From positions 12,977,712-13,041,711 of the forward strand of contig NC_049995.1 in the NCBI RefSeq assembly GCF_000003815.2: 64,000 nt of DNA, read 5' to 3'. Below, piece by piece: positions 359-47,957 of this stretch. Source of the DNA: Branchiostoma floridae (taxonomy: Eukaryota > Chordata > Leptocardii > Amphioxiformes > Branchiostomatidae). Under the pieces are notes generated by a model. The model was not told the origin of the DNA. It ran no database searches and saw only the letters and a program-made list of their open reading frames with translations. The position numbers and the translations under genes were made by a program. Within the stretch, counting starts at the first letter, position 1. The number at the start of each line of letters is the position of its first letter.

Positions 359-3300
359 CTCGTAGTTGGGCTTGATGTGAGGGGTCAGGAAAGCAACCTT
401 TGGGGCACTGTTCTTGTTGTAAACATATCTGAAAAGAAGAAAATGGCTTGTTTGGACCTTTTAATCACTCTAATAGACCCCTTTAATGGAGGTAATAAGG
501 GAGGAGGTAAGGGTCATAGATTGACAGATACAGATTACAAGCTTGGGCTACCAAAAAATCTACAAACTATACACTGTGCAGTAACAGTTACTGTTAACAC
601 AGTTGGAGAATCTTACAGCACAAAATAATTGACGCAATCTACCCTGAATTTCATCATTACTGTTACATACCTGACTATGGCCACCATGTTGGTCTCATAC
701 AGAGCATGGATGAATGCTGACAAGGCTACAGCTGCAGGCTAAAAGAACAGAAAATCAGTTAACAGTCATACAATATGATGTTACACTTTACACAACAAAG
801 TACTGAAAAATTTCACTAGGCCTCCCCTTGTCTTTCAGAATCTATTGAGTTATAGACTACCGATTGGGTGCATTTACCGGTTATGCTAAAGAAGAAAAAG
901 TCATTCCTCCAGTACAGGGAGTTCCTCTCAACCTTATTTCTTGTTTTCTTCTTGTCAGCCAGCATTAATTAAACCCCTTCTGGAACTTACCTTATGTTGG
1001 CAGACAGAAAGAAAACCTGACAAAATAGAAATCCCAATAAAAACATGTAACATACAACTAAAAAGATGTCAAAAACATTTGATTGGAGAGTGATCCTTAC
1101 CTCATCACCCTCCTCTGCTACAAAACAGCGGACAGAGTCTCCCATGTAGTACTGTCTCTTCACCTGAAAAACAGTTTGTGAGACAAAAACTTCAGTTTAC
1201 CAGCCAGCTTCTAAACAAATATAACGTTAGACACACACTCTGACATGCACAAAATCAATGCATGTATGCACACACTCATCACAATGTCAAACACATGCAG
1301 AAACAGTCTAACATTCACACAAATACAGTCACATAGACAGACACAAACATGGACAGACACACACATGCACTCACAAACACATACACATGAGTACACACAC
1401 ACACACATACACAATGCACACATACACAATGCACATACACACCCACAAACACACACATCCACACACATGAGTCAGTACAAACACAAACACACATTCAAGC
1501 ATACAGACGCATACACAAAATGTCCTGCAAACAGACACACACACACACAGAATGATGAATGTGCATACTCTATGTCAAACAACACATGCATACCATAGAC
1601 AAATACACTTCTGAGTCAGACAAGGAAACAGTCTCCCAAACTTACATTGTCCGCCCTGGTGAATCCCAGGACATCAAAACACTTGGCATCAGTCTTGAAC
1701 TTCATCTGGCTCTCATCGTCTGTGCTGAAGGGCACGATGGTGTTTCCATATCTGTATCCTGGGAAAAAAAGGAAAATAATTATCGTACAATCATGTATCA
1801 CCAGTTCACCTTTATCTGTGGGGTAACCTGTTCATTGTTTTTAGAAACGTGGTATTTGTTATGTCAAGTTGACAGACGGTGGCTTCAACTGATTTGAAAT
1901 ATTGCCACTTGAAACCACCAACCGTTGACTTTAACATCCCAAAGTAATTTCATTTTCACCTTGTTTTTTAAACGGATATAGGTTACTCCGTAGATAAAGG
2001 TGAACTATCGTAATGTCTGATTTCTTGTTCCTTGGGAATAACTCCATTGGGAAAAGTTCAACTTGAAAGCTGAACATTTGTAAATCACTTACATTCAATT
2101 ACACACAAACGCTTCTGAAAAGACAAGCCTTTGTTTACATGGATCTGTCTATAATTTTTATTCAAAGCCTTCTCGTAGAGTTCTACATGTGATTATATTA
2201 TTTTTACATATTTTTTCCATTTAACCAAAATTAAGGAAACTCCATTCAAAGATTCGGACTGTGCACCTTAACTCTTGCCTTTGAGTAAGTGCTGAATCAT
2301 TGCAACAGTTGTTTACTAAATTTGTTGCAATGCACCAGTGCTTATGGGGATCTGCCAGCCATCCGGCATGCAAATTGAATTGATGGTGTTCAAATGTAGT
2401 TCCGGGTCTATAACTTGAAGATTTTTTTGCTTGGAAAATAGGTAGAAATTCTGGCAGTTTTGAGGTCAATGTGACTGGGGAGGGTTTCTACTTTCTGATT
2501 ATGGCCAAAAAGCTGAGTTTTTGTGGTTATCAGGGGATATAAAGTTGGGACTATTTCCTGGTTGTGCAAGGGCCTCTTCCCTTCAAGTTGGTGGTTATGC
2601 GTTTGAGGGGGTGGGAAGGTTTTGGGGTATTTTTCTGCAAATCATGCCGTAAGATTTCTAATGACAATGGGATTTATCACAGCTGAGATGATGGGCTTTC
2701 ATGTGAGGGTAAGTTTGTTTGCCAGTAACGTCAGAAAGGTGAGTCATTGGCACTCATGTCTGTCTTTCTGTGCCTTTTTGAGTCAATGGACCGTGGATTG
2801 CCTGGGGGCTGTTCTTATGATGTCACATCATTAGTCAGGGGAATCCCCTTACTCACAGTTTGGCCACACCTACACAAGAGGTAAGAAAGTGCGATTGTTC
2901 ACCCAATCCATGTTTTTCCCTTTTCCCCCACCTTGTTATCAAGCGCCATTGAATAGAATACTGAAAAAATTGGCTTGAGGGCTTGTGCTATATGTATGCT
3001 GTATCTTAGATAATGCATAAGTTTATAAATAGCACAATAACCTTGGTCATAGTTTGCCCATGACTCATGCATATCCCCCCTCCCCAAAGACACACACAAA
3101 GAAAAGAGTTCTGCTCTCATGATCAGCATCTGGTTGCCATGCAGATTTTACTTGGCGCTACCGCGGATTTAACACTACAGCGAACACTCCATTTTCCGGC
3201 TACCGCGAAAGTAAAGCCCGCAAACTTAAATGCATGTACAGTAATTAGTTTTAGCCATGTATTGACTAACCAAAAGACTTAAAACCACAGTTTTTTTCTG

Positions 3301-6300
3301 ATTGTTATACTTTCTGAGTGCACAGAGATGGAATTTCAGTCTTTTTTTAGTAAGTTAAATAACAGTGTTGTGTGTGTGTGATATGTGTGCGTATGTGTGT
3401 GTCACAAATGTGCTCACATTGAAAGAACATTTTAAAAGCACTTAAGCCACTATACTACTGGAAAGTTGTTGAAAGGCTTCAAGGTAATCTAATGTTGAAA
3501 GTTTTGCTGAATATGGTGAATTTTGTTGTAACACTTAGTTTAAAGTCTTGTAATTGTCATTTTGGGAGGAGAGGGTGTCATTCCAAGAAACAATTGATTG
3601 AAATGGTAACTGTTTAAATGTTTTAATCAATTAGGATTTTACAAAGAAGGCCATAACAACAAAACAACTGTTACATTGTCTAAATGTTTTAACATGTAGG
3701 ATTCCCTTCCATCATGAGGAAAGTTGTTTGGCTACTCCTGCTGCTTCCATGGCGGGTCCAGGGCCAGCTAGAGCCCTCTACATCAACAACTGCCACTGCT
3801 ACAGGGAGTCCCTCTGCAGCTTCTACAGAGAAATGCCCAGAGTTGTATGCATATGATGAATGGGTGCATGACTGTTTACCATGCAGCATATGCATCTCAT
3901 ACCCCAATTCACCATTCTGCCATGCATGTCCAGAGTTTAATAAGGAAACTCCTCAGGCACCTGCACCAGCAGGTCCTGACTCAGAAGTGGACTTAGAGAC
4001 ATCTGATGTAGTTGGACAATCCTCAGGTGAGTACTACATGATTTACAATGTATGTTGTCTTTTTACTTGGTCTACAGTAAACCGTATGAAATTGTACTAT
4101 AATTGTAGACTCTTACAACATTGTATAAGACCTGTAAAAATTCAAACTTGGAATCATCATATGCATTACTTAATTTATGAGGCCAAGATCTAACAACAGG
4201 TGGTCTAGCACTAATGTAAATATATTTTGAAAGGAATTGTAGAATCCAGTCAATTATGTATTTCAGGCCAGAATTATCGAATCATGTTTCCCAGGAAGGA
4301 AACATTCTGATTTTGTCGACGTTCATTTTCATCTTTTTCATCCGGGAGGGATCTAATCAAAACTCAGAAAAAACTGGGAGCTATAATATGCTTTCCGCCT
4401 TACCAGCTTTTTGATTGGCCGAAAATCTGTCTTTCTCGGGGATACGTCACTGGTGGACCTATCAATGGGCAGGACTCAAATAGCTCGCTATCGCCTTCTT
4501 TACCAGGATGCAATGAAAAACCGGGAGGGACGTATGCGAATCGGCCATATGTTCGACCAAAAAGGCGTTCCAGGAGGAAGTTGCCCGCCATGGAACGAAT
4601 GAGATCACAAACTTTTCACACAAAAACATTGTGTTCAGAAGATTAGACATTGGAATCTTGGAATGAACGGACCTATTTAAGCTATGCCCTACATTTCTAT
4701 ACCTGTTAGAACAAGTCAAATATGTTTGTGTTGGAAGCAACGTAGTGGTTAATGCATCATCATTCTTAACCATTTTAGCAGCTTCAACCCGAGTTCGAGT
4801 CCGCGGAGGGTGATTTTTTTTCAATTGTCCTTTTTTTCCTTTTTAAACATGCATTTAATATAAGAATACTTTCATCTTGCGACCAGAACCATCAAAACCC
4901 ACCTTTGGGACTTTCTGTTCTGCATTTGCGTGCATGTTTTGGTAAAGAAACAGGGCTTGATTGTCAACGTATACAAAACACACCAGTATCAGTGCCAAGG
5001 CAAGAGGTAGGGGGGTAGATTTGCGTAATCAATAAGTTGCTCCAATGAAAATTTAGCGATCGATCAGTGTCACCGTTTTATCTGTTCTAGTTAATGGCGG
5101 TGCATGCAGGACACTCCAAGAAATGAAGAAAAAAAACTCAGGCATTCTGTAGTTACTGTAACAAAAATATTCAAGACCTGTAAATCAAGATTGAACATGA
5201 ATCTGAGAACCATTTATTTCATTCGGATCTTTATACAATGTACACTGTAATATTAGTTGGAAGACTTTCTACACAACACTTCCTATTTTCTGTCCTGGTG
5301 CTGATGATAATGTTGAGAACCATGTTTTGCAAAGTACATCATTCTATGTATGTATACTAAAGGCAAGTTTCATACAACTATGAAAATATACACTTTTCTC
5401 CTTTGTCATCTTTATTTGCCACAAAATCAATTTTCAATATCAATTGAACTTCTTTCCACAGACTTCCTACCTATGCTGACTGGAGCTATTGTTGGAATCA
5501 GCATTATGTTTCTGGTTATTTTGGCCCTAATTTTGAGCTTCAAGGTATCATTCATTAGGGCGAAATGGGTCAAATTGGGTTTAATGAACAAGCAGCCACA
5601 GCGAAAAAAGAGGTAAGATAACTTTGATATTGATTAGAGAACTAATGTAAATCAAAATGGTACCCAAAGTGTTCCCACATGAGTCTGTAGTTCACCTAAT
5701 CACTACATTTGTATGTCATTTAAGGTTGTAAAACAGAAGTTATAATTAATTGACCCAAGAAATACTTGACATGTGTGATTGTATCTTGGAAACTGGAATG
5801 CCTTTTGATACAATAAGCATTTAAGTGTTTTTTACGTAATGATTATGCCATCATTGAATAATCAATTAAATCAATGATAATCATTAAAGAAATGATAATC
5901 ATTGAAGAAATGATAATCATTGTTTCTTGCATTGCTTTCAGCAAAAATGGAAGAACTATCGATGCACCAGATCTGCAACTAAGTGAAAGAATGCATGGAG
6001 CCAATTGCAATTTGAATGTACTGATAGCCCAGGCACCAAAGACTTTACCTCCAAAAACACAAAATGCAATTGCACAGATGCAAAAGAAAAGTGTCCAGTT
6101 TGTGCCAGATGGAAACATATTTGACTCTGACTCTGACATAAGTCTTTGTGAGACTAGAACATGTAGTTCTGCAGCAGACAGTGGATATTGTGCTCCCATT
6201 GTATTGACACCATCTAACAGACTCAGTGTGATACAAATGTCTCAATGTGAAGACGAAAGTTGCAATGAGAGCACAGACTCTGTGTGTAGTAAGATCAACA

Positions 6301-9300
6301 TTGCTACATTTGATTGTAACTCAGTTGTTTTCTTTTCGGAGGCTCTTATTGGCAAAGACGGCGGTATCTTAATGCTTCCTAATGCTGCGACTTCTCTACT
6401 ATTCAGTCCACATTCTATCTCAAACCAGATTGACATTACCCTGGAAATACTGCATAACCCAGTTATACTGCCTGACTTAGGGGAAGATGAGACTTTGGTC
6501 AGTCCTTTTGTGTGCTGTGGTCCTCACGGCTGGACCTTCAACAAACCTGTGCTGTTAACATTTCCTCACTGTGGCATGTCTGACACAAATGACTTTACCT
6601 TACTTGTCAGTGAAACAAGTAGTCAGCAGGTTCCAGATTGGGTAGAAGTTAGCAATGCTACCCCAGGTATTGAGTACTTTGTCAGGGACAGCGAATGCCT
6701 TGTGTACACCAAACATTTCACAGGGTTTTCTCTGAAGTCTAGGGGCCCCAAGCAAGTACGTTTACTCGCTTTTTCAAGCGTATCTGATAACTTGTACAGG
6801 CTTAGGGTCTACTGCATCAATGATACAAAAGATGCCATTGATCGCATTAGGAGGGAAGAACAGGAATTTGGGTTCAAGCCAACCGACAGGGGGATTTCGA
6901 TGACCTTCTTGAATAACAAGGAGGACATTCGTCTGAAAGCAAACTTAGAGACACCAGGCTGGAAGTTTCTAAACAGTTCACAAGAGCTTGTGATCAGCTA
7001 CAATTCAGTTCGGGGAAAGAGGGATGGTAATGTGATGTTCAACCTTCAAGCAGAACCAGACCTTAAGGGAGACGCAAGGGTTCTGTCCCTGAGCATACAT
7101 GCTTTTCAGGAAGGCAACTCAGACTCTCCAACATACAGTGTTGCTGAGGAGTTGCCAATTGGAGAGTTTGAAATGACCCCATCTCTGCCTTCCTACCACA
7201 GATGTGATCATAGAGGGGCATGTAACTGTGTGACACAAACGCAGGTCTACACAGTACACACTAACATTACAAACCAGGCAAGGGTGTCTTTTCTGAACAC
7301 TCTAGGAAGCCACAGAAATCTTACCATCCCACATAAGCTTCGCACACATCTTTGCATTAAACTAGACCCCCTAAAAGAGCGTGGTGATGACTGGAGAAGT
7401 CTTGCGAGTGATTTGGGCCTTGACGAGTTGATTGAATACTTTGGTTCAAAGGGAAACCCAACTGAACTGGTGCTCCAAGAGTTTGAGAAGTCTGAGAAGA
7501 CCTTGAAAGATCTTTGGGGTATTCTGATAGGCATGGGGAGGCCAGATGCAGCTTCTTTGGTACAAATGTACATTCAGACAACAAGTTGTAAGCTGCCTTC
7601 TCCTGTTAGTGACAGTGGGGTGGGAAGTCCTGATACAGATCTAGAGGCACCAGGAAGGGATAGCACTCCTTCTCCTGGTTCTGATGTAAGGTTCTTTCCA
7701 AATGGCCCTTCAAGAGTAGGGGAGAGCTTTGAAGCCATATCCGAAACAGACCCACCACAACATGTGCACTGCGGAGGGTCTGTTCCTTCTGAGGATTTGT
7801 ACAATTCTAGTCAAGCTGCTGGTTCTCAGACAAACTCTCCACAGTTCTTGCATTGTGGTGGCTCTGCCCCTTCCCAGGATTTGTACACATCTTCTCAAGA
7901 TGCTACTTCTCAGACAAGCTCTCCACAATATGTGCATTGCGGAGGGGCTGACCCTTCAAAGGATTTGTTCAGTTCTTTATTTGAACATGCTATTTCCCAG
8001 ACAAACACTCCACAGTTCTTGCATTCTGGAGGGCCTGTTCCTTCCCAGGATTTGTACAATTCTTCTCAACATGCACATGTTTCTCAGACAAGCTCTCCAC
8101 AATATGTGCACTGTGGAGTGTCTGTACCCTCACATGAATTGTACAACTCCTGTGAAGAACAAACTGAACCAAAACTGATCCAAGCTATTGAAAATATGCA
8201 GGACTTACCACTTAACGTTAACAGCACAGCCAGGGAGAATGATGAGCCAGGAAATGATGAGGCTCAGGAAATAAACGAGACAGGTACAGATGACTCTGTC
8301 AGCTCCCAAGATATCGAGGTTATGGTTGTTACTAGTCCAGAAGTTAGGCATCTTCCAAATGGGCTCCGTGAGACAGAAGTGTAAACTGATGACACAGTGA
8401 AATTTGTCATTGAAACATACTGAGTTCTTATATCATGACTTCATATATAGTCCAGTTGTTAGCGGCCATGCCTCTGGAACTAGAAGTCGTGAATCCAAGT
8501 GTACACTCCTGTAAGGTGTTCCAGTCCTTAAGACAGGACATCAAGCAGTGGTTCCCTGTCAATTATGCTTGTCAAAAAGACCTATACAAAATTCTTTGCC
8601 CTCCCAAAATGTGACTTAAAAATGAGATGGAATGTGGACTTCAAAAACTGAGAAGATTGCAACAAGGGACAGCATTTGCTTTTGAATAAGGGTAAACCTG
8701 CCTGTCCATCAAATAGTTCATTTCATTGCATGGCCTTTTGCATTGTATATACATGTATTGTTAACTTTTAATTATCTGTTTGGAGTAATTGATTCCCTTT
8801 AATAAGTTAGTGCCTTTTGCGTGATATGTATTAACTTGTTGAAGTGTGTGTGTAATGACTTAATCAGGTTTGTTTTTTTATCGCATCAGTACTTTGGTGT
8901 TAAAGAATTGTACATGTATATCAAGTGGTGATACTTAATTCATACTAGTTTGTTTCTGTATTTTGAAAGACATTTAATTAGTTTTATTAATTTGTATATA
9001 CAAGGGTTGCAGGTAATAAATGGTCATAAATCATAATACTTAGCTTGTACAATAAAGCTTAAATTTGTAGTTATTGATATCAGATACTTGAAAACAAAAC
9101 TGCTACTAACTGTACATTGTAATAGGACAAAGTTTATAAATATGCACGTAAATACTGTGAATCTTTGTGTGAATTGACAAATTGATTAAGAGGGCATAGT
9201 AGAGAAGATGAAGATGGCTTTGTATGGCAGAAAAAGAAGCTTTTATACTATAGCATGATAACCATTAAATTTCCCTGCTTTTTTTACATAATTATGACTT

Positions 9301-12300
9301 ACATTGTGTTACTGAGTTAAACATACATTGTATATTTCTACAGTAACTGCTGTATACATATATACACAATGTACCTCTAGTCTGTAGATTAAAAAAAGGG
9401 CTGTACATGATGCAATTATGATGCTTATCTTGTCTTTGTGCATTTGTGTGAATGTTTATGCATGACAAGTGCATGTGCTTGCGCATATGTGTGTGTTGGT
9501 GTGCGTGTGACGACTAAAAATACAGAGCAGCCATCTATCCCAAACCTGACAGGCTCCCTCAAATCCCCTCCTCCTTCCCAAAGAATGGACAGAAAAAGAT
9601 AGAAAAGGACAGGAAAATTAAGTTTGTCGGTACCATCAATTGTGGACTCCACTGGAGTTTCCTCATCATCGTTAAGTCTGTGTTCATGAGTCGTGTGGAT
9701 GTCGTCTTTGCTCAGCGTGCGGGCATGGACTTTCTTAAAGGAGTTGGGCTTGCACTCCTTAACCTGGTAGGAAGACACAAGAAATACTATTCAAGCAAAG
9801 AAGTTATAATTACTACAAATAGGTATCATCTTAGGAGCCTTTTGATCAAACTTTATTTATCCATGTAAAACTCAAATCTTCCTACTGACTGCTATATTCA
9901 TTGAGGTAATGAGGCGAGAGGTAAGGGTCAGACAAAATACAATTTGAGTTTTAGTCAATTGATAGAGGATGCTCTCCTCTTCAGCATCATCACATCTTTC
10001 TTTCCATCTCAAAAATATGATTTTGATCAGCAAATCTGTTGTAATATATGTATCATTGGATGTAATGAAAAATTAGGGAAAAAAGATCTATAAGTTTGTA
10101 CAGGTATGAACACAAAACCCAGGGCAGGCTAAAAGCAGTATAATGTTTCGTGTGAGAAATTTTTGCCTTACTCTGATGAACCCTCGGACTGGAATCTTGA
10201 GGTTTGTCCCGACCTCTAGCATGACCTTCCAAGGAGCGGCCCGCACGTTTCGCTTCTGGAAGAAACTTAGCATCTGCAGGGCCTCACTGGAACAGTAGAG
10301 GAAACAAAGGTTATAAACTTAATAACCAATGTTACACTGCAGGCCACATTGGTTGTAGCATCAGACTATATATTTGCCTTTATAAACCAATTATTGGCTG
10401 CTTGTTCATCTTGAATTAAAGCCACCTTAGTGCAGACTGACTGGCATGCAAGTTTGTTTCTGTATGCGTTTAAAATTGACAGTTTCCTTCGCATACTGCC
10501 AGACATTTGAGATCCTCCAAACTTACATGATATGCACATCATATACGAGCTAGATGTCCTAATTTTCAATGCTAGTTTCTCAGTTCTGTCTTCTCACTCA
10601 CATATAGAAGCCATTTAATTGTCTATTTGCCAGGATATTTTGTGCAATTATATATAGGTGCAATAATGTGAAGTTATCCAGGTGGAACGCATCGGTTTGG
10701 GATTTTGACATTTCGTGCAGTGTGTGTTAATCCATTGTGCAATTAACTGGCTATTTTATACATGTTCTGTTGTTAAGGAAAGGGATAAACACGAGATGCT
10801 TTCTTCCTGATTATATTTGTAAAAATGGAAATAGGAAAATTTTTGAAGCTTCTGATAGCACCATCTACATCATACTGAAGTAGGTTTGCCCTTAAACTGA
10901 CCTCTCGGAGTACGCAACCCCGTCGACCTCCTCGATAACGTGGCGGATCAGCGCTGTGCCTGCCCGCTGCTGGGGCGTCCGCTCCTTCCTGGGGGGTCCG
11001 GCCCCGTTCTGGTCAGGCATGTCGCCATCTTCATCATCATCATCAAGGGACAGCCCACTGAAGGTCAACAATGGATACAACTTATAACAATGAATGGTTT
11101 TCTGTTTTTGCGATAACCTTATATTTTTTGTTTTTAACTCTCTATTTGACATTTAGGCACTTGATATAATATAAGAAAGCTCTGTTTTACATGTATCTTA
11201 TTTTTCTAGCCTGTTCATACTCATGGAGAGTGAGTGAGTAACTAAGTGAGAGAGAGTGAGAGTGAATGAGTGAGTGTGTGATTGAATGAATGAGTGAATG
11301 AAAACAAGTGAGTAAGCATGAATGAATGAGTGAATGAATGTATGTGTGAGAATGATGAAAGAGTTGGAGTGAATGGTTAAATCAATGAAAGAATAAATAC
11401 ATGTAGAAGAATGAATGAATGATGGGTAAGTTGATGAGTGAGAGAATGGATAAGTGAATGAGAAAATGAGAGTTGATGAGTGATGAATGAGGGAATAAGA
11501 GAGTGAACAAGGGAATGAATGAGTCAGTTCTGACTCACATGAGGTTGAATTCACACTCCAGTGCCTTCATCCCGTTGATGACTCCCTCCAGCTGATCGTC
11601 TGTAAACTCTCCCGCCAGGTTCGAGAACAGGACGATTCGCTTTGTCTCAAACTTCTTTCCCCTGGAACAAACAAACAAACAAACAAACAAACAAGTCCAA
11701 ACAGGAATTGTTATAACAGCCTGGTTTTCCATGAGAAATATTTAACTAAATCAAATAGTGTATGTATCAAATCAGAATTTTTCATACTCACATGGTTTGG
11801 TTCCGCACCAGGTCTAATGCCACCACAATGGCGTCCACAACTGGGAACTGTCAAGGATCATAACAACAATAAACAAAATGATCTGACTATAATAAAAACA
11901 GTTTGCTGTTTCTGTTGCAGGCACGAAATTATTCTGACATTGAATTCTCTACAAATTCCTGGAAAGATACAGTCGGCAGACACAGGAGGTGGAAGAATGT
12001 AGCATTGCAAACATCCTAATGCTTTCATTTCAATGGTAAAATTTGCCAAACAGAAAGGATACAGTCAGCGGACACAGGCCCTGGAACAATGTCGTTCTTT
12101 ACAAACTCAAGCAGGTCGAAGTCTGGCTGTCCTAGCGGCCGCGCAACTGTGATGTTCAGGTAACTCTCGTCGTCTGTTCCTGCCAGCTCATTGGCTGTTT
12201 CCTGGGTACCAAGCAGGATGAGCGCGACCTCATCCTTAGACTGGGAGAACATCTGTGGGAGAAAGGTCAAGGTTAGGTCAAGGTGATAACAGTGAAGATC

Positions 12301-13306
12301 AAAGCAAAGCTGTAGTATAGACTATATAGACATAAGTTCTAGGAGTAGGAGTCCATGGAACTATGCAGAAGACTTTATCCTTGAAGAATTTAAGTAGTCA
12401 AGTACTAGTACTAACATTGGGAAAAATTTCATCATTTGATCACTATGCTGAGACCAGTTAATAAGTAGAACCTTGTACTAAAAAGTCACACGGTCTGGAA
12501 CACCTGTATCAGCCGTTATCGCGGCCCAGGTATGACCAGTGACCACAATCTCAAGTGGTCTTATAATTTCTATTCTAGGATAGCAACCTGTTTCTGATAC
12601 AACAAAAGACCATTGTCTCCTTTAGAAGACAGACCTCTCACCTTTCTCTGCAGCAGCATGGAGATGGCATCCTTGGCGTTTTCCAGGGGGGTGACATGTC
12701 CAGGGGGGGCCTGCGCCATGAGGGGGCCAACGTCAACCACCAGCACCATGGCTTCCTGTAGGGGGGTGGGATGAGGGAGAGCGGTGGTGAAGATCAATGA
12801 GGGTTTAGAAATAAGTACTTACCTGGTCCAAAGAATATTATAAAAGCATAATGATTATCAGGTGGAGGACAGGAGGACCAAGGTGTCATATTTTTGCAAT
12901 TTAAGTTTATTTCTTCTTATTCCCCTTGAGCCCCTTTCATTCAACATGTTTGAATGTGAATGCACAGAAATCATTATCAGTTAGTATCACATATCATAAT
13001 TTATTACAACTTCATAATTTCTCGGTTTGTGTGTGTGTATGGGGGGGGGGGGGGGGTGCGGCGGTGAAGGAATGCACATAATTGTTCCGAAAATGAGTTT
13101 ATATCATTACCTTTCCTTTGTCGCTTGCTACTTGTACAAAGGTGATCATACTGTGCAAAGAACGCTTTAACGTGCTTGATCATGCCATGACACCAAGGCG
13201 TACACATATATATTTGATTGGACTGCATTTTTGTGGTGAAATATACTGCATTTATAGGATCTGACTCAATTCATGGATGCAACATTACCTTCGGACTACC
13301 GGCCAT
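359..13306 (-). CDS. xrcc5: Ku80, DNA end-binding subunit (5' part of gene, 12 coding exons)
   Basis: Ku80 pairs with Ku70 to form the ring that binds broken DNA ends and recruits DNA-PKcs and ligase IV in non-homologous end joining in the nucleus. Coding exons read on the minus strand are 13306-13289, 12755-12642, 12252-12063, 11840-11792, 11661-11539, 11057-10902, 10286-10172, 9763-9634, 1758-1646, 1163-1101, 738-671 and 428-359. All junctions are GT-AG and keep phase, giving 403 residues; the C-terminal half lies beyond the left edge. The vWA domain opens with VLVVDVGPLM and continues through GKKFETKRIVLFSN. An acidic loop follows (DDDDEDGDM, about residue 170), then the Ku core with GYRYGNTIVPFS, KCFDVLGF, ALSAFIHALYETNMVAIVRY and TPHIKPNYE, all close to vertebrate Ku80. 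Exon 1 encodes only MAGSPK. The exon 3 donor (gtatcc) is weak but is required by the TTT codon joined to exon 4. Intron 8 hosts a nested gene on the other strand. Confidence 0.95.
1215..1555. repeat. Degenerate (CA)n-rich microsatellite in xrcc5 intron
   Basis: Long impure ACAC/ACACAT tract between xrcc5 exons 9 and 10. It creates Cys/Val- or His/Thr-rich open frames on both strands that are not genes. Confidence 0.9.
1760..3713. other. Intronic spacer, no gene seen
   Basis: Left part of xrcc5 intron 8 upstream of the nested receptor. Apart from a MITE fragment at 3152-3243 and a GT-rich patch near 3366-3405 I see no gene. The short open frames here lack homology or splice support. The receptor promoter probably lies in this interval. 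Confidence 0.5.
3152..3243 (+). mobile_element. Fragment (right half) of mariner-like MITE
   Basis: Sequence from gcgctaccgcgg to aaatgcatgtacagta matches the right half of the complete element at 23828-24020: same order of CCGC-rich motifs, a shared tccattttcc core and the TGCAT-ACAGTA end. The left half is missing. Confidence 0.65.
3714..8384 (+). CDS. Fn14-like TNF-receptor with ZU5-UPA-death-domain tail
   Basis: A type I membrane receptor predicted to bind an extracellular (TNF-family?) ligand and signal through a cytoplasmic death domain. Exons 3714-4026, 5462-5612 and 5942-8384 join in phase (g|ac = Asp, ag|c = Ser) and encode 968 residues. Residues 1-18 are a signal peptide, followed by a Ser/Thr-rich linker. 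One cysteine-rich domain has Cys 41, 54, 57, 60, 69 and 72, spacing C-x12-C-x2-C-x2-C-x8-C-x2-C, the spacing I recall for Fn14/TNFRSF12A. The membrane helix is about 109-131, followed by a basic stop-transfer KKR. A ZU5 domain spans about 285-420 (GKDGGILMLP), UPA 425-550 and death domain 621-700 (LCIKLDP, GDDWRSLASDLGL), in the order found in UNC5. Residues about 755-895 hold five 28-residue repeats. An acceptor just before the ATG suggests a 5' UTR exon. Poly(A) signals lie at 9015 and 9051. Domain calls are by eye; ligand and partners are unknown. Confidence 0.85.
4732..4820 (+). mobile_element. tRNA-derived SINE head / tRNA-like Pol III element
   Basis: Sits in intron 1 of the receptor gene. 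It has an A-box-like TAGTGGTTAATG (4743-4754) and a B box GTTCGAGTCC (4793-4802) at tRNA spacing, followed by a T run (4813-4820) that could stop RNA polymerase III. I could not fold a clean acceptor stem, so a SINE head or tRNA pseudogene is more likely than a working tRNA. Confidence 0.55.
5866..5922 (+). repeat. Short tandem repeat before receptor exon 3
   Basis: About three copies of a 17-bp unit (aatgataatcattgaag and variants) immediately precede the polypyrimidine tract and acceptor of receptor exon 3. They keep the reading frame open upstream, so the exon looks longer than it is. Confidence 0.75.
7746..8160 (+). repeat. Five tandem 28-29-residue repeats in receptor C-terminal tail
   Basis: Each 84-87 bp unit encodes a variant of QTxSPQ(F/Y)(L/V)HCGG, a Pro-Ser-(Q/E/K)-D segment, then LYNSSQ. 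All but the third unit have a Tyr after Asp/Glu-Leu (Phe in the third), and two units have a second Tyr in QYVHC. The PSQD and PSED cores resemble, but do not match, the (P/S/A/T)x(Q/E)E TRAF2-class motif, having Asp in place of the final Glu. The repeats follow the death domain and could be docking sites; this is inference. Confidence 0.85.
9015..9056 (+). promoter_or_regulatory. Polyadenylation signals of the nested receptor gene
   Basis: Two AATAAA hexamers at 9015-9020 and 9051-9056 lie about 0.65 kb past the receptor stop codon, giving a plausible 3' UTR. The interval 8385-9014 has no gene; near 8450-8500 it has a stretch with a weak tRNA-like B box (gtcgtgaatcc) that may be an old SINE. 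Confidence 0.55.
11215..11530. repeat. Degenerate GAAT/GAGT tetranucleotide repeat
   Basis: Impure (GAATGAGT)-type tract in the xrcc5 intron between exons 5 and 6. It yields a Ser/His/Phe-rich spurious open frame on the minus strand. A separate pure CAAA run lies at about 11668-11692. Confidence 0.9.
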
Positions 13307-16380: not shown

Positions 16381-19300
16381 ATGACGTCTGTGGCCGTGAT
16401 TGGAGGTGGGATCTCAGGACTGTCGGCTGCCTACTACCTCAGTAAGGCTCCACACCTGGTCAACAAGGTCAGATAAACTTCTGAATGTTTTTTTTTTTTT
16501 TTTTAAATCATTCTTTTTATTGTTTTCTTCAAACAAAAATGAAAACAAATGGAGCATGGCATATAAAACAAGTTAACTGAAAGCACATGCGTAACAACAA
16601 AAACTAAATAAAACCAGTGAACAATGTAGATAATATAACAAAGTATTGTCAAGAAAGCAATGCAACCCCAATTGCACACAATTTCTTCATGCAGATAACG
16701 AAAGTAAACCCACAAGTTTTCCCCATTTTCCCATGTGTTTTTTTGTTTTGCCCGTACGGTTAGAGATGATTGATTCTCAGTGTCTGATGGACAGTATAAA
16801 GAACATTTTCCTGAAATAAAACCATCAAACCTCTGCTGTTACTAGAACCGTGATTAAATAAAATCGGGCCCCCCCATTCTGACCTCCATCTTTCTTCATT
16901 CACAGGGGTAGAGTGAGTCTCCTGTATGCAATATATTTTGTAACTTTTATCTTTTAACCATGTAAATATTTGATTTCGCTTTCTATGATCGCCCATTCCA
17001 TTGCAGTTGTAACTGCAAATACTAAGCTTTGGTAACACCATGGGGACCGAGCAAAGAACGAGAAGTAAGAAAATACTCTGGGCGATCACAGAAGGCGAAG
17101 CACAAGTAATAAGGTAAGATTAAAGCAAAAAGAAAAATATGTCTATGAAGGCGGCAATTGGGGTTGCATAAACGAAAATGAATCGTACTAAACGAATCAA
17201 CATATGATCTAAAACATGTACAGACATACAGCACTATGCCATGCAAACATAATAGAAATAATATACAACACAACATCAAGTAAGGTAAAGCATACGGCAA
17301 CTTAACGTCAACAAAACACAAAGTAAGTTGATAAAGGTTGGTGGCTCATTCGCTCAATCCATCATTATTGTCATTCTCGTTTACCCCACAAAAATACTTA
17401 GCCAAAGTAACAAACGAAATGGTACAGTTCATCACTCCTATTAAACAAAAACAGAACTCTAAACTATAAATAGATGAAACAGAAATATAACAATTGGTCC
17501 AACTCAAAAAACTAAGAGTAAGTCATTAGCAAACCAGATTAAAGATTGGTCCAGTTCAGAACATAAAGAATAACCATACATAAAATGGTCAGAAATCAAA
17601 CAAATTGTTGCTCGCAGCTGTCAAGAAATTCTCTTCGGACACGTGTTCAAAGAACAACCGCATTTTAATGTAAATTCCACAAGCACCTACCAGCTGCCCA
17701 CATGAAACAGCAAGTATCATAACAAAATGCATGTATGTGGCTTTACCCCACTGTATCAGAAGAGATAACCTGTTACAATGTCTCCTTTTAACACATCTCA
17801 ATAATATTTAAAACAAGAGGGTTCACAACATATTTCTGATTTCCAGCTCATACCAACACCTCAGGCAAATTATTCGCACATGTCGGGAATTCTTCGGAAC
17901 ATTCCAAAACAACAACAACAGATGTGCACTTGTACCATCTGCACAGACTGAACGACAAATATCATGAGAGCAAAAAATGTAGCAGTGTAACCGTTGTATG
18001 AGAGTAGACTACAGCGTCCTTTTAAATGACACCAATACTAGTTGCACATTGGAATCGAGATATTTCACAACAGAAAGTACAATGTATCCTGTGAACATAA
18101 TCATATCACAAGTTCGTACTACTTCAAGACACAGTCCACAGCATCTACTCGCTTTCTCTCCTTCCTGTCTACCATCAAAACAGCAAAAGTACTTTTGGGT
18201 GGGACCCAGATCGATACGCTCACCTTTGTGTTGCTGTTCTTGGCCTTGTCGATTTCTGTGTTTCTCTCGGGAATGAGTTTAGATCGTGCGGCTTGTAGGG
18301 CGGGAGGCAGGTGCTCGTGTACCACAAACTTGCTACCACGAATCTTCCTTCCGGCCTGTAGTACCCTATCCTTGTCGTGAAAACTGACAAAGCGAACCAG
18401 TAATGGTGGATTTGGCCTGGTAAAAGACGGTTTAGCCAGGCGATGAATGGCAACAGTTGGCATATCCAAAGTAACATCGAAGCCAAGTTCGTTAGTCAAA
18501 AAGTCTGCAAAAACTTGGCCGCAGTCTTCCTCCTTCCTATAAGGAATGCCCCTTATTATCACATCTGCCTTCATTGAATACCTCTCGGTCAGAAGAATCG
18601 CTTTAACTCTCTCTCGACGTTCCTCCTGTAAAGCCTCGTTAAGTCGTTGCACCTCACTCTCCTGGAGCTCTGCGGCAGACTCTAACTCGCGCACCCGACC
18701 ACGTAGCGTGCTCACATCGGTCGTGAGACCTTCCACTTTCGTGTCCAGAGTACGTATTTGCGCTGAAAGCTTCTCTCCCACGGCGTTGAATTCCGCTAAG
18801 ACAGTCTCCTGTTGTTTCTGAACTTGTGCTAAGATCAGTTGAGCCAGTGTCTGCAGCTCTGGTGAGAGGGATGTCATGGTCACCTTTTCTGAACCGGCGT
18901 CGGACCGAGAGGTGGCCATTTTCGGCGTCTTGGGAGGGGGGTTCTTTTGCGACGGACTTTTCCCCTCCGTGCTGGAGCCAGTAGACGTTCGGTTGCGTTT
19001 TTTCATCAGCCAGGCGAAGTCTATAGGTAGTAGAGCAGCAGTTATACTAGTATGGAGACAGTCTGAGCTGTTTTGGGGCACGGACAAGTCAAAAGCTCTA
19101 GAGCCACCAAACTCCCTGTTACTCTATCGCCGCCATGTTGGAAGGAATGAATGATAACTTCTGAATGTTCTCAGTTCTCGGATTCTCCAAAGTATCCATC
19201 TCTGACTGGGCATGAGACTTTTTCTTAGGATATATCCCTTGGTCATATTTGAGACAGTCACTGCATTCTGCAAACTGCAGCAGCGAGCACTTACATGTGT

Positions 19301-22300
19301 TACTTACATTTTACAAGCAGCCCTAGGGCATGTATTTGCAATTATAAAACTTAACATTTATTTTGCAGCACTGTAAAGCAAATAGGTTTTTCCCTGTGGA
19401 ATATGACAGACGGTCACAGAGACTTCAGCAAGGGATAGTGTGCTGTTTATGTGCGAAAAACTTTGTCATCCCGTGATTTAACCGGACTTATTTAAAAATC
19501 AGTGGAAAACTGAAGGACTTATGTTAAAGATTCAAGAATGAGTAGAGGGAAGATATAAAGCACACAATATTCTCAGGTATGTGCCACTTTTTTGTTTGTT
19601 TGGTTTCCACAGGTTGTTCTCCTTGAGGGAAGTTCCCGCCTGGGTGGCTGGCTCCAGTCCACCAGGACAGAAGAAGGAGCGATATTCGAACACGGCCCTC
19701 GCAGTCTCCGGGTGGCGGGAGAACCGGGGGCAAACATCCTTGGGATGGTGAGGACTTTCACTTTTTGTTATCTTAAGAAGATTATCATTTTTGTGGCAGT
19801 TGTAATGTATGTTAATAATATGTATGTTTGTATGTCAGTATGTGGGCAACATAACTTAACTTCAAAGAAGCTATTTATGATAATTGATATAACGTTACAG
19901 TATGTGGGGATGGTAAGGACTTTCACTTTTTATTATTTTTTTGCATTCTATTAAACCATGAATAATTTGTGATGCTTGCATTGTTCTATTTCTAGTTATA
20001 TTACCAGAAGAAAGTTTAGAATGTAGCCTTGGGTAATCATTTTATTCTATTTCCTTAGCATATGACATTCCAAGTTTAGAGTGTGACATTGGGTGCGTGT
20101 TCTATTTCCAGGCGGATGACCTTGGGTTGACAGACCAGATCCTGCCCGTCCTTCCGAGCCACGAGGGAGCGAAGAACCGTTTCATCTACGCTGGCGGGAA
20201 ACTTCACAAACTGCCCAGCAACTTCAGGTGGGTGTCTGTACTATATTGCATTATCAAATGATAGCCTTGTCCTATTGGGCTGAAACAGGAATACAAATCT
20301 ATGAAGTCCAAATAAAGTACACATTGTAACAGGTCTTCTGTTACTCATATAAAACATCCGTTCTAAAACTTAGCTCTAACACATAGGTTTGGATTCTTCT
20401 TGTCTCTTTGTAATGTCAAGAATTTAGGTTGAGATGGTTTATTTGAGCTAGGTTGAGATTCGTGACTGGCATATCATTAATAATTGCACCAGCTGCCTAG
20501 CTAGCAATATGTTTCTCCTGGTGAAATAAATAAATGTATTGTCTATGTGTTTGTCAGCAGGGCTAGCCCTTTGTAATAGCCGTAGGCTAGTTGGGCAGCC
20601 CTGGCTGTGTGTTCGGTACAGCCAAACCAATAAATAGAAAAAAAATAAATAAATATAGAAAACAAAAAACTTCAGGTGGGAGTACAGTGGACAGTATTTA
20701 CACAACAATCACATATACTTTATTTTAGGGCTTGGACTATATAGGTGTAACAATAGGAAGCAAACAAGTTTGTACCACTTGTCAGTGTAAAGAGCATTAA
20801 AATCATAATCAATATTTGCTGCAGCAATATCATTGAACATCTTTTCCAAACATCATGAGTTGATATGTCATGGCAGTAATGGTATACAAAATGATGTACA
20901 TGGTGGCAAATTGATATATAACGGGGGCCGCCCTAAGACGGTTCCCGTCCTAAGACGGTACGGATTTTTTGCTGATCTTATTATCCATAAGTACACCGTG
21001 TTTGTTACCGCTGACTATGCTGATTACAAAGGTAAATAAACTAAGTCCATGCACACAGCTTTAATTTGCATTCCAAGTATACTTTAACATATTTACTTCA
21101 TGTTTTTAAAAAACAGAATTCTAACAGTAATGTTGACAGTGCTGAATCACTGAGGTCACCGGCTCCTGCGTATTGCCGGCTCGTGTCGCTAACTATACGA
21201 ACTCGTCCAAGCAGTCACACAACTGCCATGATACACATAAATAAAGCTCCATAAAACACTATGGATATGGGTCTTCAAATGTTTGTTGAGTAGAAAAGCA
21301 ACCAAAAGGAAGCGACATAAACATTGCCACCATTGTACTCCCAAGGGAGTGTGGCCGTGAAGGTGGCAGACAAGAGAACGCTCCAAAGATTTATTTGACT
21401 GTAACAAATGATTCGTGCTGTCTATGAAAATAAGACTTGATAGAGAGATGTATATGATATTTTCATATAATCACACAGAGTTTTGTTGATGTTGGCGTTG
21501 TCGTTTTTTCGTAATGGTTTTTTTAGTCGGGCATTCACAATCAGTGCATTCGGCCCATTGCCCGTAAAAACATCAGCTGGATTGTTCTAGGTACAGCCTT
21601 CCTCATATGAGACAGAAAGTACATACAGTCACGATTTTACTGTTAAAAGTAATCTAAAATATCATACTATTAATTTTTTTCTGTGTACTTAAATTTACCA
21701 CTTACTTCTGAAGAGAGCAAAATGTAAAAAAGCGTACCGAGTTAGGCACACTGTCCAGCGTAGCACAAAATTGGAAGGTTACATACACGAAATTGTCTCA
21801 CAGTGTTTACCGCTTGTAACACGCAGCGCGAAAGGTTCATGAACCACATGAATGCATTTCTTATCAAGTATGTTGTTCATATCCATGTGTAAAAAATTCA
21901 GTCATCAAACTTTGACCACTCTCAGGCAACTAGCGATGGAGCGCCATGAGTTTGAGCGCAAGAAAAAGCGTACCGTGTTGGGGCACCTCCCGTTACCATT
22001 CAAAATCATCTTATTTTTTATTCTGTATAACTCAAGGAGGAACCTTAGTAACTATGAAAACTACGTGTTTAATGATGTGCAAAATGCAAGTATTAATCGC
22101 AACATGTACTCAGCTCAGCATCCATTTTAGTCTGTTTTAAATTACTTAACGTCATGGAGTAGGTTTGATAAATACAAGGAGGTTGAAGAAACCGCCTTCA
22201 GTTGGTAAACAAGACTCTAAAATAAATTACCATAGGCAAATATTGACCTAGCTGTTGCAATCTGGACTTTGACTTGAGGCGGGGCTGGAAACACTGTAAG

Positions 22301-25300
22301 GCAGCTTCACTGTCTAGATTTGGCACACAAGTCGGTTAAAAGTTGTGCTGTTCACCAGGCTCAAGGTGCAAGCCTTTGAGCACACCTTCCCTTTAAGCTA
22401 TCCTGTCTGTAGAAACTTAGTGCCAGAAGGACTTTAAGGTAGTACCTTGCTGCTATCAAGACATCAGGACCCGAGTTTGCCAGGAATGTAACCAACAGCA
22501 TGTCTGAGAAACGCCAAAAGCAAGAAACACTGCTTTCAAGTCCTGTACAAACCCAGCCTGCTGTATTTCAGCCCACCAACATCCCAGTGCCAGTATGTGG
22601 ACATGTGACAGACCAGTCTCTTCCATCTGCACCAATCCTAGCAGCAAGGGGCACAGACCATCACCATGGTAACCAATGGCAAGTGGAAAATCAGTCTCAG
22701 AGGATGACATTTGGGGGAAAAGGATCAGCAACAGGACAGTTCAGGTATCCACGTGGTGTTGCAATATCAGATGAAGGGGAGATTTTTGTAGCAGACTATT
22801 GGAACTACAGAATCCAAATCTTCACCCTGCAGGGAAAATTTGACCGACAGTTCCCAACAGTCGTTTCAGGTGAAGAGAAAATGAAACCATCTGATGTGGC
22901 CCTGGACAGGGAGGGGAACCTGTGGGTGGTGGGCAAGACAGGGTCTGCTGAATTTGCTGTGCAGTACAATAAACAGGATATACTTAGGAAGTTTGACCTA
23001 CAGAAGACAATTTGGGGAAGAGGGGTTCTTGTGGACACCAGGAGGAACCACATCCTCATCACACAAACCAAAGGAAAGCCCCCCAACCAGTATGGCGAAT
23101 TACAAGTGTTCAGGCCAGATGGGACACTTGTGACAACTGTGGGTGAACAGCAGGGGATGAAAAATCCATGGTACATCACTGTGGACAGGGAAGGGAACAT
23201 TCTTGTATCGGACTGTGTAAATCACTGTGTCTATGTGTACAATGATGATGGAAGTGAGTTTTTGTTTCTGTTTAGAGGTGAGGAAAGTGGTGAAGGTCAG
23301 CTGATATCGCCCCATGGCATCTGCACAGACAGGGCAGGTAACATCATCGTGGCAGACTATGGAAACAGCCGTGTTGAAATGTTTGACAAGAAAGGCAAAT
23401 TCCTTAAACACATCACTACAGACATGGGAAAGCCACAGGCTGTTGCCATGGGGACAGAGGCACAGCTAGTGGTGACTGATTGGGTGGATGACACAGTCTC
23501 CATATTTCACAGCTACTGAATGTTTTAAAGAACTAAACAGTATGTTAAATGTCAAACAATCAGATTCCCCTTACACGTGTACCTGTATGTATTGTAAGCT
23601 GTAAGCTTTATAACTCTTTGTGGACATTCTGATGAGAAAGAGGCCTTGTTACAGATCCACTTCTGCATAATGCAGGGTGCAAAGAAGTTGTATCCTCTGT
23701 TTTTCTCAGCATAGAAAAGGATCCTTAATTTGGTCTGTATGATCATAATGATTATAGTACTTAGAGCCATTGCCATGGCAACACAGGACATGCTAGTAAC
23801 TAAGTATAGGAGATACTAGTAAGGAGATACTGTAAATGCAGAAACTTTTGCGGTGGATTAATGTTTGCGGTTTTCAAATTTAAAACCGCCGCGAACATTT
23901 TTCCATAACAGTAAGAGACTACAGTGTATGGTGCTACCGTGAAATTAAAACCGCCCCGAAAAGTCCATTTTCCCGCTACTGCGAAATTAAATCTCCGCGA
24001 ACTTAAATGCATTTACAGTAATCTTTTATTCAATGAATTACAAAAAATTGAAATGATTATCATTATTGCAGACTGTTGGGTGTATAATTCCAACTTTTTC
24101 ACAAGTATTTCTGAAATCAATCTTTATGTTAGGTTATGATAATGGTCAACAATATTGATGTCGCTAGAAAGTAAATAGAGACATTCGAGAAGTAATGTAG
24201 TAGTCTATGCAGATGTGGAGATATTTTACAAGGTAGTTGAATTGTTTTCCACAAGTTTGGTAATTTGTTGTTTTTTACTGTCAAATAAAGTAACTAACTG
24301 TAACATGCATTGCACTTGTCATTTTATTTTCCAACAACTTGGAATTTTACAAAGTCAGTACATCTGATTCAACACTCTAATAGTGATATATACCATATAT
24401 AGTACACATTTCTTGAGGCTGAAGATTTATTTTTACAGTAAATTGTTATATTTTGTAAGGCCCTGAAGAATTATAGCTTGAAAAAGACAAATTCAAGGTA
24501 AAACCGTCAGGTTTGACTGTAAACAATGCTCCCCCCCCAACCTAGATAATTCTAAGATATGAGCCGATTGATAACCAGCCTTTGATTCATCAGACTCTGT
24601 AAAAAGGTAAGCCAGGGCTTCATAATTATTCAAAAGCCAGCCCTTCGCATGGTAACTGAACAATATGCTATATACATTTACAAATAATCAAAAGGCATGT
24701 ATAAAGGTGTTCACTGCGCAAAGTACAAGACTTGAAGGTATTTTTTACGATCAACCACGTGGAGATGATTGTTCAAAAGGTACAAGCTATTTGATGAGCA
24801 CTGTAGACCCGACTGTTACTAAGACAGAATAAGGCAAAATGAGGTATAAACCAAAGAGTGTAGGTTTGACAGACATTTCGTTCTACTTAGAGGTCTGTTC
24901 CGGAGGTACGAGCTGTTTGCTAACCAGTCTCCTGCCCTGATGGGACTGAGGGAGCCATTTGTGAAGGGGAGGCAGGAGGAGGGGGATGAGAGTGTGCACA
25001 GCTTCTTCTGTAGGAGGCTGGGGAAACAGGTAAGGTTCTCCATCTGTGACTTATCTGTTTCTAACTATGAGAGAAAACAGGTAAGACTGAAGATTCTAAC
25101 TGTTTCTGAGGGAGCCATTTGTGAAGGGGAGGGAAGAGAAGGGGGACAAGGCTGTGCACAGTTTCTTCTGTAGGAGACTGGGGAAACAGGTGAGGTTCTC
25201 CATCTGTGACTTCCAAAGTTTCTAACTGTGTCTGAGGGAAATATGGAAGGTACTGTCTCTGTGACTCCCAAAGTTTCTAACTGTGTCTGAGCGACATGTT

Positions 25301-35076: not shown

Positions 35077-35099
35077 GGTGCCTGCCACCTAAATAGAAC

Positions 35100-39931: not shown

Positions 39932-40237
39932 CTATATAATAGAGACAAAGAAATTATTGAAAATACATCACCACTAACTTGCGCCAAGATAAACGAAGCA
40001 AATACGATCTGCATTATGTGAATGACTTCTTTCATCATTTCCTATGTAACATTGACTAACTTACGCAAAAACAAAACATGGGTCCTATTCCACATCTAGC
40101 AGGATTACAATACTGAAGAGACCGCAATGTTTCAATGTTCGTTCCTTTATGGGATTCTCCTAGCCCCGACTGCCCCAAAATAATTTCAAGGCCTTTCTCA
40201 CAACCGGACCTTCTTCCCCTTAATATACAGCATTAAA

Positions 40238-40800
40238 TCTGCTATTTTTGACCCTGCTTCCTGTCAGTTTCTCTGCACGTCGTGATTGAAATATGGACGG
40301 TGCTGCCGGTGCATCCCCTTTTCTATAGAAACACTCAACAAGGGCAAAAAGGAAAACAGACAAGTGCTGTTGAAAACAAACTCGCACCAATAAAGAAAAA
40401 CGAATGGGAAAATTGGTGCTTTTGAGTGATTCGCCCTGAGCCAACTTTTGAGTTTGACATTTGAATATATGCATGAACATGAGTTTGACATTTGAATATA
40501 TGCATGAACAACATGAGTTTGACATTTGAATATATGCATGAACAACATGAGTTTGACATTTGAATATATGCATGAACATCATCACAGGATCACAATGTAT
40601 TCTCCACGCCTTAGCCATTTCCCCAGTCCTTCCCTCCAGGGCTCCCCTCCTGACGACGACCCTCCCCCACTATTAAGTGTACAGTCCCTAAGCTAAATCA
40701 CCAAGTCTGCGATCTTTGACCCCGCTTCCTGCCAGCTTTCCTGAACGACGTGGCAGGAATTAGATGTGGACGGTTCAGCTCTTCTCTAAACGGACTTAAA
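40238..40800. repeat. Local duplication plus 4-copy minisatellite
   Basis: A block with ttgaccc(t/c)gcttcctg(t/c)cag occurs near 40247 and again near 40716, a local duplication of about 470 bp offset. Between them, about four copies of a 30-35-bp unit (gagtttgacatttgaatat then atgcatgaacaac) run from 40451 to 40577. They cause His/Ile/Cys-rich spurious frames on the minus strand. Confidence 0.8.
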
Positions 40801-41177
40801 ACAAATTCCGTTTTCCGAATCCTTCTCCTAGAAGACATAACACTGCTCTCGGTTTCTATATCATTTAAAGAAAATCTTATATAGATTCTAAGGTACAAAT
40901 CGACCTTTTCCACTAGTCTCTACCAGACCCCCGCGGGCCCCGCCTGGCTGAATAGGAGACTATATGGCCTAGTATATATAATAGGAATAAAAGCCTGGGA
41001 GTGTTGGCCGGCAAACTAAAACTCCTCGGCCATCTATATCCTCTGGCGTGTTTGCTGTCTTATTTGGCCGATTTCTACTATATTTTCAGTGGCATGTGGA
41101 GCCTGGTAGAGGCTACTTTTTCACGTATGACTTGCAGGCGCGCACAACGACCCCCCTCCCATATCCAGCCCCGAACC

Positions 41178-41793: not shown

Positions 41794-41879
41794 CCCCGAA
41801 CCCACCACACCTCTAATTTCTAATCTACCACGGAAAAAATCAGCAAACGAAAAGAGTTAACGACAATAAATGGTCTTAC

Positions 41880-45935: not shown

Positions 45936-46191
45936 GCCTAACGTTTGACAATCGTGGGTTCGAGTCCAGCAAAGGTAGTATAAGTAATAGATGGCAGACT
46001 TCACATTTTAATCACCCTTTCTCTCCCTTCTATCACAGTCTAACCCAGGAGAACAGCGACTTACATAAGGATTTTAACGTACAAGCAAGCGAATACAAAT
46101 GAATTATACCATTATGCATAAGAGTAATACATTAACGTGTTGAGTTCAACATATCATTTACCGTACTCTAAGTTCTCTATGGCTGTGATAT

Positions 46192-47957
<1,766 letters not shown>

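Follow-up and report, generated by a model that had tools for sequence, protein, structure and literature searches.

The window, a 64-kb stretch of the Branchiostoma floridae genome (C17:12977712-13041711), contains on its forward strand a predicted receptor gene in which an extracellular head of the Fn14 type is joined to a cytoplasmic ZU5-UPA-death tail of the UNC5 type. Three exons (Table 1) join in phase, 4026 to 5462 and 5612 to 5942, into a 2907-nucleotide reading frame with a single terminal stop, which encodes 968 residues in the order signal peptide, one six-cysteine domain, membrane helix, ZU5, UPA, death domain and repeat tail. The two joins and the single stop bear out the frame proposed in a first-pass annotation, made from the letters of the DNA, and the chimeric receptor is confirmed as a gene model. 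When forward-strand GT sites were scored with approximate weights written from recall and the tested site itself was counted, donor 1 (CAG/GTGAGT) was equalled or beaten by 2 of 4231 sites and donor 2 (GAG/GTAAGA) by 21. On the same strand the polyadenylation hexamer AATAAA is absent from 1036-8270 and ATTAAA from 968-5865, so that no obvious transcript end lies within intron 1; AATAAA recurs downstream of the stop codon, at 9015 and 9051. Since an AG acceptor precedes the start codon by 14 nucleotides (the exon would begin at 3700), a 5' non-coding exon upstream of coding exon 1 is possible. Codon usage is uninformative here, with exon 3, plainly coding, scoring only 0.003, exon 1 scoring 0.010 (reached by 10 of 31 control windows) and exon 2 scoring -0.243 (reached by 304 of 369).

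Table 1. Features of the predicted receptor gene, in window coordinates
Feature	Position	Strand	Description
Exon 1	3714..4026	+	Signal peptide (residues 1-17, by eye) and entire ectodomain; phase-1 donor CAG/GTGAGT
Six-cysteine Fn14-type domain	3834..3929	+	Residues 41-72, C-x12-C-x2-C-x2-C-x8-C-x2-C
Intron 1	4027..5461	+	Phase 1; putative junction between Fn14-type head and receptor body
Exon 2	5462..5612	+	Phase 1 start, phase 2 end (AG/C); membrane helix and basic juxtamembrane stretch
Membrane helix	5467-5541	+	About residues 107-131, in exon 2
Intron 2	5613..5941	+	Phase 2; contains an 18-nucleotide tandem repeat, 5858-5921
Exon 3	5942..8384	+	Cytoplasmic tail from residue 155, in one exon, stop codon included
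ZU5 domain	6342..6611	+	Pfam, residues 289-378, E 9.2e-18, above cut-off
H413-F414-T415	6714..6722	+	End of ZU5; putatively at about the position of the PIDD HF/S site
UPA domain	6750..6965	+	Pfam, residues 425-496, E 3.1e-5
Death domain	7347..7568	+	Pfam, residues 624-697, E 2.7e-11, above cut-off
DSGVGS	7611..7628	+	Residues 712-717; beta-TrCP phosphodegron-like
Five in-frame direct repeats	7733..8161	+	Spacing 84-87 nucleotides; encode units such as SPQFLHCGGSAPSQDLYTSSQ
PSEDLY	7785..7802	+	Residues 770-775; fits PxExx-aromatic/acidic
C-terminal ETEV	8370..8381	+	Class I PDZ-ligand type ending

The head carries exactly six cysteines within residues 1-104 (41, 54, 57, 60, 69 and 72), and their 12-2-2-8-2 spacing is identical to that of Fn14. 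Searched with phmmer against solved structures, it finds Xenopus Fn14 (2kn0) with an E value of 3.6e-5 and human Fn14 at 0.19 and 0.87, with unrelated zinc fingers in between at 0.32 and 0.41; among 5000 shuffles of the head with its cysteines held fixed, none reached the Xenopus Fn14 score and 85 reached the human one. With a model built from the Fn14 fragments of Xenopus and human, exon 1 comes top among 2097 frames (E 9.2e-6, the next at 0.087). Part of that score reflects cysteine spacing, because the exon 1 frame also came first in 4 of 20 cysteine-fixed shuffle sets, with a best E value of 0.00098. Two genes on contig C5 of the assembly supplied six Fn14-type domains for a further model, which picks out exon 1 with an E value of 1.9e-9 (next best frame 0.022) and in a two-sequence search recovers Xenopus Fn14 at 2.4e-11 and human Fn14 at 1.8e-9. 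By these comparisons the head is Fn14-type, and the six-cysteine domain with Fn14 spacing that had been recognized at first pass is upheld by the spacing, the Xenopus match and the C5 model together. The protein also shows the general layout of the TNF receptor superfamily, namely a signal peptide (by eye), a cysteine-rich domain, one membrane helix and a cytoplasmic death domain.

The tail likewise proves to contain the ZU5, UPA and death domains that had been assigned to it, as both Pfam and the match to UNC5B indicate. The UPA domain scores 24.1 bits, under the Pfam cut-off of 27, when the whole protein is searched, and 27.7 bits when a shorter stretch is. UNC5B is the best match of the tail among solved structures (E 1.2e-22), first over ZU5-UPA and again over the death domain, and the death domain searched alone returns UNC5B at 2.4e-10, followed by NF-kB p105 at 0.0077 and p75NTR at 0.33; Fas and TNFR1 are absent from both sets of matches (16 at E <= 1 and 15 at E <= 10). 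On this showing the tail is UNC5-type. The death domain being far nearer to that of UNC5B, we do not favour TNFR1, Fas or p75NTR as the source of the death tail. When the ZU5-UPA-death stretch was searched against viral and genome contig collections, 2 and 28 pattern matches were returned, none of them a relative. Further along the tail lie DSGVGS, which we take to resemble a beta-TrCP phosphodegron and whose motif type arises in 113 of 20000 tail shuffles, PSEDLY, presumably a fit to the TRAF6 motif, and the terminal ETEV, which we assume to be an end of the class I PDZ-ligand type. The TRAF2-type pattern [PSAT]x[QE]E is matched three times, at residues 500 and 542, which fall after the UPA match and before the death domain, and at residue 891, further down the tail. 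The five tail repeats are flanked by two copies, 71% alike, of a 31-nucleotide stretch (7675 and 8332).

Scans of the whole assembly (513,431,437 bases in 431 contigs) return at least 41 ZU5 matches and 30 matches to the ZU5-UPA-death stretch, of which the closest after the window gene lies on contig C7 (E 2.3e-59, 35% identity over 12-426 of 428). The tail of this C7 relative, L030, is one 622-residue frame, about 34% identical over ZU5-UPA-death in a later alignment, and it is preceded on its strand by two cysteine-rich frames and one membrane-helix frame. A predicted gene model, in which five exons are joined at GT-AG ends picked by eye, stays open, with a membrane exon running from phase 1 to phase 2 and a single-exon tail entered in phase 2 on AG/A; these predicted phases equal those of the window gene, whose tail starts on AG/C. 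Both tails end in the same four residues, ETEV, and both carry DSG[VL]G at the same place 3' of the death domain (DSGVGS in the window gene, DSGLG in the relative). The C7 head differs from the Fn14-type head in that it takes up three or more exons and its cysteines are TNFR-like; no first coding exon was found for this gene. In a genome scan with TNFR_c6, which scored 150 of 209 candidates, gave 125 matches at E <= 10 and was set against the ZU5 places by eye, the nearest listed match to the C7 tail is weak (E 3.8) and about 43 kb away, the strong ones lie 76-80 kb away, and the gene's own head is not among the matches listed.

Contig C5 in turn holds two neighbouring frames (L035:2086-2703 and L035:5274-6122, both on the reverse strand) that each encode, in one frame, a signal peptide (by eye) and three tandem Fn14-type domains, as against a single one in vertebrate Fn14, and are each followed by a membrane-helix frame. 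Their exon ends were picked from the sequence, and candidate phase-1 donors, CAG/GT, lie five or six residues past the last domain, with candidate acceptors, also in phase 1, before the membrane helix. As far as intron 1 the window gene thus matches the C5 genes, and beyond it the C7 gene, a pattern that fits an exon swap at a phase-1 intron. Comparing 20 Fn14-type places (weak ones included, overlaps merged) with 41 ZU5 places yields pairs within 200 kb only on C17, namely the window gene, whose two places lie 2.6 kb apart, and a weak match with a stop, 72 kb away. Beside the 20 other ZU5 loci that were fetched, the two-sequence vertebrate model finds no Fn14-type domain (best E 0.4), the Fn14 cysteine spacing does not occur on the strand of the ZU5 match, and the six-domain model reaches at best 0.044, in a 54-residue frame of L034. 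Within the limits of these scans, an Fn14-type head with a ZU5-UPA-death tail appears once in the assembly.

Exon shuffling is described as very frequent in lancelets, with a bias to phase 1-1 exons (PMC4284660); the case of the window gene concerns only the 3' end of a first exon. We propose that an Fn14-type first exon, with signal peptide, cysteine-rich domain and phase-1 donor, would have been transferred, by way of a phase-1 intron, to a TNFR-like/ZU5-UPA-death receptor made of a membrane exon and a single-exon tail, a likely relative of which survives on C7; the direction of the swap, Fn14-type exon onto TNFR-like receptor, is one that we infer. The domains, exon phases, C7 relative and donor-type genes are computed results, and the architecture together with its origin by exon shuffling is, in our judgement, very probably correct. 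The first-pass annotation had seen a lineage-specific shuffled receptor that could couple a TWEAK-like ligand to a UNC5/PIDD-like switch; architecture and shuffling stand, by virtue of the C5 phase-1 exon and the C7 relative, and the reading as a whole is partly supported, its killing function, TWEAK-like ligand and confinement to one lineage being conjectural. A single genome would then retain what are likely to be counterparts of the two sources of a shuffled immune receptor, a donor-type exon on C5 and a recipient type on C7, with a phase-1 intron that would allow the first exon to be swapped. The window gene would in this way illustrate, in one concrete instance, how new receptors for cell death or inflammation may be assembled.

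How such a receptor might signal can be framed by analogy with its two sources. In TNF receptors a trimeric ligand clusters the ectodomains, and in UNC5B the ZU5 domain packs on the UPA and death domains to form a closed module (solved entry 3g5b). A trimeric TNF-family ligand would cluster the Fn14-type head, clustering would open a ZU5-UPA-death module held closed as in UNC5B, and the freed death domain could, together with PSEDLY, recruit IRAK/TRAF6-type partners toward NF-kB and JNK, as reported for UNC5CL, with the ETEV end perhaps anchoring the receptor to a PDZ scaffold. The full explanation, a shuffled chimeric single-pass receptor with clustered release and inflammatory output, we hold at a probability of roughly one half; clustered release taken as a mechanism is evenly poised, and an inflammatory rather than a killing output is put forward tentatively. 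UNC5CL is reported to recruit IRAK1, IRAK4 and TRAF6 toward NF-kB and JNK (PMC7570868) and the window tail has a TRAF6-type motif, and for these reasons we lean to an inflammatory over a caspase output. Furthermore, the death domain is nearest, among solved structures, to UNC5B, far ahead of p75NTR, so that the output could equally be UNC5CL-like inflammatory signalling. As for the ligand, at least 24 TNF-family ligands have been reported from amphioxus, and those named in the literature consulted belong to groups other than TWEAK-like.

Several observations weigh against this explanation. The Pfam model of the Fn14 family, stn_TNFRSF12A, gives the head at most 13.3 bits against a cut-off of 24.9, TNFR_c6 gives at most 15.3 against 29.4, and on the longer stretches searched both are outranked by mucin-like MUCL1 (E 0.029 and 0.018), which is below its own cut-off, scores slightly above the TNFR models and covers a threonine-rich stretch of the head. 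Taken alone, the Pfam result would go part way to refuting the TNFR-type domain expected at first pass; the phmmer search, the shuffles, the two-fragment model and the C5 model, four other tests, point the opposite way. The C5 membrane exons appear to end in phase 1, as against phase 2 in the window gene, so the resemblance of the C5 genes to it stops at intron 1. The likeness of the C7 head to TNFRs lies mainly in its cysteine pattern: it matches TNFR_c6 with E values of 0.023 (main exon frame) and 1.2 (joined head) and has no TNFR among its four solved-structure matches, and the C7 death domain is below the Pfam cut-off (E 0.0023). PSEDLY is short and occurs once only. A structure prediction of residues 275-702 has a mean predicted local distance difference test score of 35.9, too low for use, so that the closed module is a hypothesis for this protein. 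Finally, the models of the window, C7 and C5 genes are all predictions from sequence.

The first competing view is that of a true death or dependence receptor, in which clustering or loss of ligand would expose the death domain, and an adaptor of the FADD or RAIDD type would be recruited together with an initiator caspase. The death domain is of UNC5 type, amphioxus caspase-8 takes part in a FADD pathway within a caspase family of 45 members (PMC3196919), and TNFR-caspase hybrids with cDNA support are known from amphioxus (PMC2575513), all of which would suit it. Against these stand the p75NTR death domains, which match at 0.33 or worse, and the absence of Fas and TNFR1 among the solved-structure matches listed. 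Moreover UNC5CL, which we take to be the nearest membrane-anchored ZU5-UPA-death protein, is reported to be inflammatory. We judge a killing receptor of this kind unlikely.

A self-cleaving receptor is another, and less probable, candidate: ZU5 would cut at HF/T as PIDD does at HF/S, and a head-membrane-ZU5 fragment and a UPA-death fragment would stay associated until clustering or destruction of the N-terminal part, an arrangement compatible with either inflammatory or killing output. PIDD self-cleaves at HF/S, and CARD8 and NLRP1 at SF/S; D'Osualdo et al. name Ser, Thr and Cys as residues able to initiate it, and align UNC5B Leu677 to the CARD8 cleavage Phe (PMC3210808). In the window protein HFT at 413-415 is the sole [HS]F[ST], and F414 comes 7 residues after C407, just as UNC5B Leu677 comes 7 after its cysteine when numbered from the Cys663-Cys670 pair. 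We surveyed the 20 other fetched ZU5 loci, 13 of which have a frame extending at least 74 residues beyond the ZU5 match; the frames of the remaining 7 stop 2-53 residues past it. HF[ST] is found at the ZU5 end in 11 of the 13 (10 HFT, 1 HFS), or 12 of 14 with the window gene included, and is lacking in L019 and L027; several of these loci are near copies of each other, so the counts are not independent. An alignment of the tails of the window gene, L030 and L018 leaves H and F invariant.

The same survey also tells against self-cleavage. Since HF[ST] is present in 11 of the 13 other loci, the motif is by this count a common ZU5 feature of the genome rather than special to the window receptor, and being so widespread it may be catalytic or merely structural. 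The residue is threonine in 10 of the 11 loci and in the window gene, whereas PIDD, CARD8 and NLRP1 use serine; two loci do without the motif; phmmer pairs HFT with VFT of UNC5B, five residues off; and shuffling the whole protein 20000 times produces HF[ST] at some position in 3259 cases. Even more doubtful is the extended version, a ligand-gated self-cleaving TNF receptor that would free a soluble death-domain fragment as NLRP1 and CARD8 do, with the C7 and C17 genes forming a class with interchangeable first exons. ZU5 self-cleavage with a threonine does become directly testable in this gene.

Three of the ZU5 loci have features of their own. On contig C4, L016:5293-8514 and L017:5234-8374 (both on the forward strand) are single frames of 1074 and 1047 residues with leucine-rich repeats, a hydrophobic helix, TIR and then ZU5, that is, Toll-like receptors with a ZU5 tail, and both have HFT at the ZU5 end. 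On contig C2 a single forward-strand frame, L018:7284-8957, carries a hydrophobic helix together with ZU5, UPA and the first part of a death domain, and its PIDD-type site reads HFS; no ectodomain exon was recognized for it.

The remaining alternatives concern the gene itself. Exon 1 might be a separate short Fn14-type gene and exons 2 and 3 part of another, for the frame of exon 1 stays open into intron 1 as far as a stop at 4193, giving 159 residues, and the model was built from the DNA letters with codon usage of no help. This artefact is highly improbable and we reject it: the join is in phase, donor 1 is among the two best on the forward strand, neither AATAAA nor ATTAAA occurs on that strand in intron 1, and the C7 relative shows the same exon logic. 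We give scarcely any credence to a decaying or unexpressed shuffling product without function, as the repeat-rich tail and the single finding of an Fn14-type place adjoining a ZU5 place might suggest, in view of 968 open codons, strong splice sites, cysteines that are all in place, a hydrophobic helix and the C terminus that it has in common with a relative of only about 34% identity. Intron 1 was also considered as a mobile element and rejected, with no inverted repeats of at least 14 nucleotides and no second copy in the window. No further copy of the gene was found in the 64 kb, where nothing but the gene itself matches below an E value of 0.3, and an Rfam scan of the window returned no family at gathering scores.

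Elsewhere in the window, an 820-residue single-frame protein with leucine-rich repeats, a membrane helix (by eye) and a tail rich in glutamine and threonine is encoded at 32629-35088 on the reverse strand, which also carries a 970-residue frame with OTU protease and MULE transposase domains at 58266-61175 (MULE below cut-off), a cluster of five long C2H2 zinc-finger frames at 38294-56304 (by eye), a Ku70/Ku80-type exon at 12028-12321 and a LINE-element-like endonuclease fragment at 16763-17119. On the forward strand lie an NHL-repeat frame at 22443-23516 and a flavin amine oxidoreductase exon at 19559-19951, the latter presumably resembling protoporphyrinogen oxidase.

In B. floridae 10 TNFRs, 4 of them with a death domain, have been counted (PMC4979521), and 36 TNFRSF genes are cited elsewhere (PMC12843592). 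The literature searched, consulted in excerpt, holds no description of a TNFR or Fn14 joined to ZU5-UPA-death; the main amphioxus immune-gene survey lies outside that search, and an earlier mention is possible. Hybrid receptors are already known in the amphioxus lineage, since TNFR-caspase hybrids have been published with cDNA support, and like the window protein these join a TNFR-type ectodomain to a cell-death module (PMC2575513). That module is a caspase domain in the hybrids and ZU5-UPA-death here. The C7 relative comes closest in plan, with the same predicted phases, ETEV and a tail about 34% identical, and differs in having a multi-exon TNFR-like head where the window gene has one Fn14-type exon.

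Fn14 (TNFRSF12A) itself has a short TRAF-binding tail with a TRAF2-type motif and no known death domain; the window protein shares its single six-cysteine domain and identical cysteine spacing, and departs from it in its large ZU5-UPA-death tail and in falling below the Pfam stn_TNFRSF12A cut-off. PIDD1, which has no known membrane helix, resembles the window protein in its ZU5, UPA and death domains and in the HF motif at the ZU5 end, its cleavage motif being HF/S where the window protein reads HF-T. It carries leucine-rich repeats and two ZU5 domains (PMC9573974). With UNC5B and the other UNC5 receptors the window protein has in common a place in the membrane and a cytoplasmic ZU5, UPA and death domain in the same order. 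The UNC5 ectodomain consists of immunoglobulin and thrombospondin domains (PMC10464613). That of the window protein is about 104 residues long, Fn14-type and without immunoglobulin or thrombospondin match, and its tail is encoded in one exon. UNC5CL, finally, is a membrane anchor with ZU5-UPA-death and no known folded ectodomain, and resembles the window protein in carrying this module at the membrane without a netrin-receptor ectodomain; the six-cysteine ectodomain sets the two apart. By linking TNF-receptor heads to a ZU5-UPA-death switch, the window gene suggests a possible link between ectodomain-bearing receptors and those ZU5-UPA-death proteins which, like UNC5CL, sit in the membrane.

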